This document shows positions 46,265 to 46,714 of a stretch of 64,000 nt of DNA, in pieces. This DNA is from Cellulomonas alba (lineage in GTDB: Bacteria; Actinomycetota; Actinomycetes; Actinomycetales; Cellulomonadaceae). The stretch covers positions 1,777,461 to 1,841,460 of the forward strand of contig NZ_JAUCGQ010000001.1 in assembly GCF_030362835.1 (NCBI RefSeq), read 5' to 3'. Made by a program: the position numbers and the translations under genes. Every line of letters starts with the position of its first letter. Position 1 is the first letter of the stretch. The notes beneath the pieces are model-generated. The model was not told the DNA's origin. It did no database searches and saw nothing but the letters and a program-made list of their open reading frames with translations.

Positions 46265-46299
46265 CGATCGCCGGCCGACACGTGGTCGACCGGCGATCG
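46265..46299 (-). terminator. second terminator hairpin behind the riboswitch-controlled gene
   Basis: CGATCGCCGG (46265-46274) pairs perfectly with CCGGCGATCG (46290-46299), and inside it CGAC pairs with GTCG. It lies 51 bp after the 51-codon gene and before the SHOCT gene, isolating the cassette. Confidence 0.85.
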
Positions 46300-46327
46300 G
46301 TGAGAGGAGCGGGTTGCGCTCCCCGGG

Positions 46328-46343
46328 CGCGGCAGGTGCCGCG
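46328..46343 (-). terminator. hairpin directly after the 51-codon gene
   Basis: CGCGGC-AGGT-GCCGCG forms a 6-bp GC-only stem with a 4-nt loop, starting seven bases after the stop codon. Confidence 0.6.
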
Positions 46344-46349
46344 GGGGCG

Positions 46350-46505
46350 TCAGGCGGCCGCGTGGTCCCGCTGCGCCGGCAGGAGCTCCGTCGCGCCGCG
46401 ACGCGACGCCAGAGCTGCCCAGTCGCGGATGCGCGCGACGGGAACGGCCGGGGTGAGGGGGGAAGCGGTCTCGGACGGGTCGATTGAGAACCCACGCTGG
46501 TCCAT
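46350..46505 (-). CDS. 51-residue protein under a c-di-GMP riboswitch
   Basis: The peptide starts MDQRGFSIDPSETASPL, continues with a Pro/Val/Arg stretch and ends in Gln-Arg-Asp-His-Ala3. It has no signal peptide, membrane helix or recognised domain; net charge is near neutral and a short amphipathic helix around RIRDWAALASRR is likely. The gene is supported by an excellent RBS (AGGAAGG four bases before the ATG), by the GEMM riboswitch that ends at this RBS, and by terminator hairpins right after the stop. It is too short to be caught by many gene finders. Function unknown; it could be a small regulator, a toxin-like peptide or a secreted signal. Confidence 0.75.
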   Translation of the reverse strand: MDQRGFSIDPSETASPLTPAVPVARIRDWAALASRRGATELLPAQRDHAAA

Positions 46506-46514
46506 GTGACCTTC

Positions 46515-46608
46515 CTGTCTGTTCGGTAGCCCGGCTGACCCCGTGGGTCCCGTGGCTTTGCGTCCCCTCCTTGCGGAGGGTTTGCCGTTTCGCTGACAGG
46601 TCAGACAG
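46515..46608 (-). promoter_or_regulatory. cyclic-di-GMP-I (GEMM) riboswitch
   Basis: Read on the minus strand, the aptamer shows the GEMM-I core in order. ACGGCAAACC (46587-46578) is followed by a CCCTCC/GGAGGG stem closed by a GNRA tetraloop GCAA (46580-46565). Then come GGACGCAAAGCCACGGG (46566-46549), a GACC/GGTC P3 arm, and AGCCGGGCTACCGAA (46536-46522). Outer strands CTGTCTG (46608-46602) and CAGACAG (46521-46515) close the fold. The first G of GGCAAACC corresponds to the guanine that recognises c-di-GMP rather than cGAMP. TGACC in the 5' strand can pair with GGTCA beside the SD of the small gene, so control is probably at translation. Confidence 0.93.
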
Positions 46609-46714
46609 TAGAGCAGGGACGGATCCTGACGGAAGCCCGCGCACCACCCAAATACGGACATCGGTCCAATTCACCCTCTCGGAGCAATCCCGGGCGCGAG
46701 AGGCCCCCCGACAT
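46609..46714 (-). promoter_or_regulatory. likely promoter region of the riboswitch transcript
   Basis: No gene is seen. An AT-richer island around 46646-46675 (TTGGAC and TATTTG on the minus strand, with GGAC-CGAT-GTCC as a dyad) lies about 40-65 bp upstream of the aptamer and is the best candidate promoter. Exact boxes cannot be fixed by eye. Confidence 0.4.

Follow-up and report, generated by a model that had tools for sequence, protein, structure and literature searches.

A c-di-GMP-I riboswitch ahead of a conserved microprotein gene in Cellulomonas alba, with a possible link to the BldC/WhiG circuit

BldC is a master regulator of bacterial development. In Streptomyces, BldD bound to cyclic di-GMP (c-di-GMP) represses bldC and whiG among other genes (PMC4151990, PMC4255298), and RsiG binds the same second messenger via the motif E(X)3S(X)2R(X)3Q(X)3D (PMC8325347). 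At the RNA level, the closest described systems are the Vc1 and Vc2 elements of Vibrio cholerae, which belong to riboswitch type c-di-GMP-I (RF01051). Here, we analyze a locus in a 64,000-nt stretch of DNA (‘the window’, to whose positions all coordinates refer) from the soil bacterium Cellulomonas alba, where an aptamer of this type precedes a gene of 51 codons. As in Vc1 and Vc2, the aptamer matches the model at full length and carries G20 and A47; what differs is the target, a protein of 38–58 aa without known family, and the overlap of helix P1 with the Shine-Dalgarno (SD) region. The minus strand from about position 46660 to 46265 looks like a complete unit with one gene, apparently monocistronic, and the combination of riboswitch and tiny gene is well established by sequence. 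Our tentative reading, to which we give slightly less than an even chance, is that this cassette may be an OFF switch responding to c-di-GMP, with a new microprotein from the BldC/WhiG circuit as its target.

When the whole window was searched with cmscan at gathering thresholds, the aptamer was the sole Rfam match, apart from an overlapping match from the same clan with a lower score. The original prediction, made from the letters of the window, had named a c-di-GMP-I aptamer serving one tiny gene, and both statements held: RF01051 is matched over its full length (1–87) with 69.8 bits at a gathering cut-off of 35. A match to sucA-II was dismissed as chance (E 0.41, far below its cut-off). We presume that the literature numbering of G20, A47 and C92 maps onto the window RNA as used here. 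These bases, ligand contacts of c-di-GMP-I riboswitches (PMC4744006), are by eye all present, C92 being the C of CUACCGA. Across the genus, G20 and A47 occur together in 95 of 97 distinct aptamers. The c-di-GMP-I-GGC variant model RF03167 gives the best E-value in the clan (61.7 bits, E 8.7e-14, above the 59-bit cut-off), and we take the GGC in its name to mean G at position 47. We rejected this label because position 47, which is G in the model consensus, is A both in the window and in each of the 97 genus aptamers, with the reading pattern able to detect A or G alone at this position. Since position 47 is A, the canonical ligand c-di-GMP is expected. Aptamers of the A47 type nonetheless pass the RF03167 cut-off, and the window copy wins its clan by E-value, so that automatic annotation would mislabel them. 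Two of the 97 genus aptamers carry A at position 20 (AGAGCAAAC; L294 in genome G207, L296 in G210), both before a small-protein gene; G20A shifts aptamers of this type (GEMM-I) towards 3’,3’-cGAMP, and these two may have another ligand or be impaired.

Of 81 Cellulomonas genomes, 79 have RF01051 matches, usually two each, and tblastn with the small protein returned relatives in 64 of the 81 at E ≤ 0.1, many of them weak. A relative of 38–58 aa stands directly behind an aptamer in 74 of the 77 genomes read, with P.Q near the C-terminus as the entry criterion for this tally and R, W and A left unselected. The three genomes without such a protein are G093 and G157, in each of which one of two aptamers was read, and G173, which has a single aptamer match. 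Among the loci that failed the tally and were not scored as bldC, L090 encodes a 48-aa protein ending in LPTPNRGA, L091 a long protein and L092 whiG; L101, by eye a bldC locus in a shifted frame, and L320 failed as well. In 60 further aptamer loci, the pattern found the aptamer in 59, followed by the small protein in 36, bldC in 22 and neither in one. R, W, A, P and Q occur in 63 of 63 distinct small proteins, P and Q by selection, R, W and A as unselected invariant residues. With a pooled ratio of nonsynonymous to synonymous differences (pN/pS) of 0.40, and pN below pS in 118 of 121 pairs (2–30% divergence, 40 small genes), selection on the small gene is purifying. The 51-codon frame put forward in the original prediction is conserved, as these counts attest, and the statement that its peptide lacks a known domain agrees with zero matches of the window protein in Pfam, NCBIfam and PHROGs; a PDB search with the family profile gave one chance-level match (E 0.26). 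The small protein is thus a family absent from the searched libraries, probably a microprotein consisting of one short helix (R-x3-W-x3-A) and a tail. A related family of 50–58 aa (the MGD group) lies behind the same aptamer in genus g9, and hhalign aligns it with the window group at E 1.5e-5 and 80% probability. In one set of small-protein neighborhoods (the window and L064–L082), the same gene cluster lies downstream in 20 of 20, convergent each time, and in the window copy this cluster holds LPG_synthase_TM; the small-protein loci L084 and L090 sit elsewhere, outside this syntenic neighborhood.

The cassette had originally been regarded as isolated, a view that did not survive: the only other aptamer match in the C. 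alba genome precedes bldC, the product of which passes the NCBIfam HTH_BldC cut-off. The bldC aptamer was read in 33 of the 77 genomes and both targets, small protein and bldC, in 30 of 77, while in most of the remaining genomes one of the two aptamers was read. Among the 30 whiG loci with the highest scores, 2 have an aptamer directly before the gene (L144 in G148, L145 in G158). WhiG of C. alba exceeds the NCBIfam WhiG cut-off (345.3 versus 343 bits); that of G148 lies 2.5 bits below it, yet passes FliA_WhiG. Locus L092 is the same whiG locus of G148, and its next genes resemble rpsB-tsf-pyrH by size and order only. Some bldC loci deviate from the simple arrangement. L118 (G079) has two tandem aptamer-bldC units about 440 bp apart; in L101 (G140), the frame shift of bldC may reflect a broken gene or a sequencing error; and in L106 (G099) a degenerate BldC paralogue behind the aptamer has kept VTRWA and a VPTQVR tail, in a genome with nine RF03167 matches.

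A short sequence motif is common to the three proteins. In nearly every small protein read, [VIL]PxQ(R) stands a few residues before the C-terminal end; the C-terminus of C. alba BldC is GIPQQRTGE, and the corresponding position of Streptomyces BldC is occupied by IPQQR (6AMK, 6AMA), by our own count residues 61–65, behind its last helix, alpha-3, at residues 51–60 (PMC5859096). The N-terminal extension of WhiG contains the strict motif in 19 of 31 genus sequences and P.[QP]R in 31 of 31, C. alba included. Of 85 short frames behind aptamers, BldC among them, 73 have P.Q within the last 25 aa, versus 9 of 728 control proteins drawn from the neighborhoods, and strict [VIL]PxQR is present in 3 of the 728, one of them WhiG; the motif had been noticed in the data before counting, so that these figures describe rather than test. 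We infer that one common partner might bind the small protein as well as the tail of BldC and the extension of WhiG. Besides BldC and WhiG, a codon-limited scan for other carriers, covering 30 of 56 genomic matches (those that came with loci) plus five stretches, showed the motif far from both ends of predicted proteins that by eye resemble, among others, a helicase and a LacI-type regulator, and at residue 19 of a calcineurin-like phosphoesterase, inside its domain. BldC of L262, L268, L282 and L293 has a second motif-like copy near the N-terminus (QLPTQA or QIPTQA).

BldC may also be connected to the cassette at the DNA level. The sequence TGTCCGAATTG is a repeat in the BldC-binding whiI site of Streptomyces (PMC5859096). 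At least 8 of its 11 letters are matched in 45 of 101 regions upstream of aptamers (small gene 27 of 71, bldC 18 of 30), related sequences whose effective number is smaller; in the control, none of 100 shuffled sites reached 45 (mean 10.4, maximum 36). An earlier, partly overlapping set gave 20 of 39 for small-protein and 16 of 24 for bldC aptamers, versus 32 of 491 other intergenic control regions. Judged by these matches, BldC probably acts at the promoter of the small gene too.

With respect to expression signals (Table 1), all 71 distinct leaders of small-protein genes have a TANNNT 23–27 nt ahead of GGCAAAC, and AGGA, AGG or GAGG precedes the ATG as an SD-like motif in 68 of these 71; a scan for strict sigma-70 consensus called no promoter at the cassette. 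In the predicted fold of the window leader, CCUGUC pairs with GACAGG and covers part of the SD. All six pairs of this extended P1 (CYUGUC/GACAGG) are present in 21 of 35 leaders and five in 5 more, i.e., at least five of six in 26 of 35, with 83.4% of cells paired; for P2 the value is 98.1%, with three pairs changed on both sides. In the shuffle control of this pairing analysis, the structure as a whole did no better than the shuffles, with a weak exception in the covariation score (48 of 500). Because the spacing from aptamer to ATG is as short as 15 nt, SD masking by a ligand-held P1, and hence an OFF switch, appears to be the likeliest arrangement. Repression of translation by the ligand, as originally proposed, is plausible in this form of SD masking, while the proposed pairing of TGACC with GGTCA as expression platform had to be given up, since 3 of 35 leaders have it, that of the window among them. 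Of the two terminator hairpins claimed behind the gene, the hairpins are present, but their terminator status is unsupported: both lack a U tract, and a terminator scan by its rule found none there.

Table 1. Features of the riboswitch cassette (positions in the window).
Feature	Positions	Strand	Evidence or remark
TGTCCGTATTT box, candidate BldC operator half-site	46650..46660	-	9/11 identity to TGTCCGAATTG; putative
-35-like TTCCGT	46629..46634	-	18 nt ahead of -10; TTCC likewise in many relatives, by eye
-10-like TACTGT (TANNNT)	46605..46610	-	pattern conserved in leaders
Extended P1, 5’ strand CCUGUC	46595..46600	-	pairs with GACAGG in predicted fold of window leader
c-di-GMP-I riboswitch aptamer, G20/A47 type	46521..46594	-	covariance-model matches RF03167, RF01051
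GACAGGAAGG, P1 3’ strand overlapping SD	46510..46519	-	sequence and fold
SD-like AGGAAGG	46510..46516	-	sequence
51-aa small-protein gene, core R-x3-W-x3-A, LPAQR tail	46350..46505	-	51-codon ORF, relatives, pN/pS 0.40
Two hairpins past stop codon, probable transcript 3’ end	46306..46324 and 46265..46299	-	sequence

In the mechanism that we propose, transcription would start at about position 46601, just ahead of P1, and the c-di-GMP-I aptamer would fold such that high c-di-GMP holds P1 closed and hides part of the SD; the 51-aa protein would accordingly be made at low c-di-GMP, if we have assigned the sign correctly. By virtue of the second switch copy before bldC, BldC and the small protein would answer the same signal, and the small protein might compete for, or bridge to, whatever binds the [VIL]PxQR tail. 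A place of the small protein in a c-di-GMP–BldC–WhiG circuit is our best-supported guess. Several points weigh against it, in addition to the post hoc detection of the motif and the relatedness of the upstream regions mentioned above. The motif is five residues long and common to few families, its codon pattern is not enriched in its own genome (56 matches versus 147 for the reversed pattern), and we know of no partner for PxQR. Only 2 of the 30 whiG loci have whiG behind the switch. P1 shows no compensatory pair in the 35 leaders, i.e., none changed on both sides, and P1/SD strands pair no better with their own than with swapped partners (swap permutations as low as observed: small genes 259/2000, bldC 570/2000, MGD group 1884/2000, others 1320/2000). 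Finally, homology of the small protein to BldC, prompted by the resemblance of VPPQVLARWA to VDPKTVTRWA, was rejected as unsupported at hhalign probabilities of 2.5–4.3%.

The direction of the switch is itself debatable. A switch that is ON with c-di-GMP, or that acts on transcription, would fit the lack of a visible anti-P1 and of covariation support for the SD overlap; we consider it unlikely, though not strongly so, as a terminator would not fit into the 15-nt gap and, in 26 of 35 leaders, P1 includes some of the SD region. As to the product, the very short frame, the hairpins behind it and the absence of an evident co-transcribed gene could suggest that the RNA is functional rather than the peptide, as a riboswitch-controlled small RNA or leader. 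The pN/pS value, the invariant R, W and A in 63 proteins and the SD-like motif in 68 of 71 leaders make this very hard to believe. The small protein might instead be a shortened BldC, reduced to the recognition helix and the tail, and serve to cap BldC filaments. This idea draws on the gapped hhalign alignment of VPPQVLARWA...LPxQ in the MGD group with VDPKTVTRWA...IPQQ in BldC, on the degenerate BldC paralogue behind the same switch in L106 and on the location of BldC Val23 and Trp31 in the head-tail interface (PMC5859096). It appears improbable, given an hhalign probability of only 4.3% for the MGD group against BldC and an alignment of the window group in the tail alone (2.5%). The small protein has no Pfam or NCBIfam match to a MerR-type winged helix-turn-helix, whereas BldC matches HTH_BldC.

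A stronger competitor accepts riboswitch and gene but assigns them to another c-di-GMP output, such as cell surface or biofilm, with a coincidental PxQR tail and no tie to BldC or WhiG. We regard this as possible, if on the doubtful side. It is favored by what aptamers precede elsewhere in the family and order, by eye often long proteins with signal-peptide-like starts, but also extra BldC paralogues and, once, a response-regulator-like protein. It is disfavored by the rarity of the motif in controls, by its occurrence in three families that are linked to one regulon but otherwise differ and by the co-occurrence with bldC. A flagellar output was rejected: 21 of 81 genus genomes, C. alba included, have no flagellin match, yet all 21 carry two aptamers, and motility is therefore not the common output. 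Across the order, the aptamer occurs in 41 of 396 genomes and 16 of 109 genera, and the 13 aptamer loci read outside the family contain no small PxQ protein. In L107, L111, L119 and L122, a very short frame follows the aptamer (28–43 codons where read), and behind it lies a cluster of recurring gene order, with related proteins of about 130–140 aa among its products; by eye, these are possibly c-di-GMP-controlled surface or matrix genes.

The C. alba genome has six GGDEF matches and can therefore probably make c-di-GMP. As under BldD-(c-di-GMP) control in Streptomyces (PMC4151990), bldC and whiG are linked to c-di-GMP, here via an RNA switch. A search of the C. alba genome, the one covered in the genus, gave no BldD-like_C domain, whereas 133 of 197 genomes of the class have this domain. 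Riboswitches before the same genes that are BldD targets suggest, by analogy, a replacement of the effector. In its full form, this view would have the Cellulomonas riboswitches take over BldD-(c-di-GMP) control of bldC and sometimes whiG, while a new microprotein family tunes BldC/WhiG via a shared VPxQR tail recognized by one partner. We consider this full form rather unlikely; its probability is lowered by the fact that much of the order lacks BldD-like_C, which is present in 3 of the order genomes listed and absent from 12 besides C. alba. The RsiG-(c-di-GMP)-WhiG switch (PMC8325347) offers another parallel, in that c-di-GMP acts on WhiG through a small protein; here, by contrast, small-protein synthesis itself sits behind a riboswitch, and the RsiG motif occurs in 0 of 63 distinct small proteins. 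A literature search returned nothing joining BldC, riboswitch and c-di-GMP, and one for Cellulomonas, c-di-GMP and riboswitch, judged from listings, nothing on this cassette.

Should the proposed place of the microprotein in the c-di-GMP–BldC–WhiG circuit be correct, the genus would possess a second-messenger regulon in which c-di-GMP reaches the BldC/WhiG regulators by way of an RNA switch instead of a protein effector. The locus supplies a concrete family of proteins below 60 residues with an invariant core. It would also bear on the action of c-di-GMP in simple actinobacteria that lack BldD, and on the role of BldC there.
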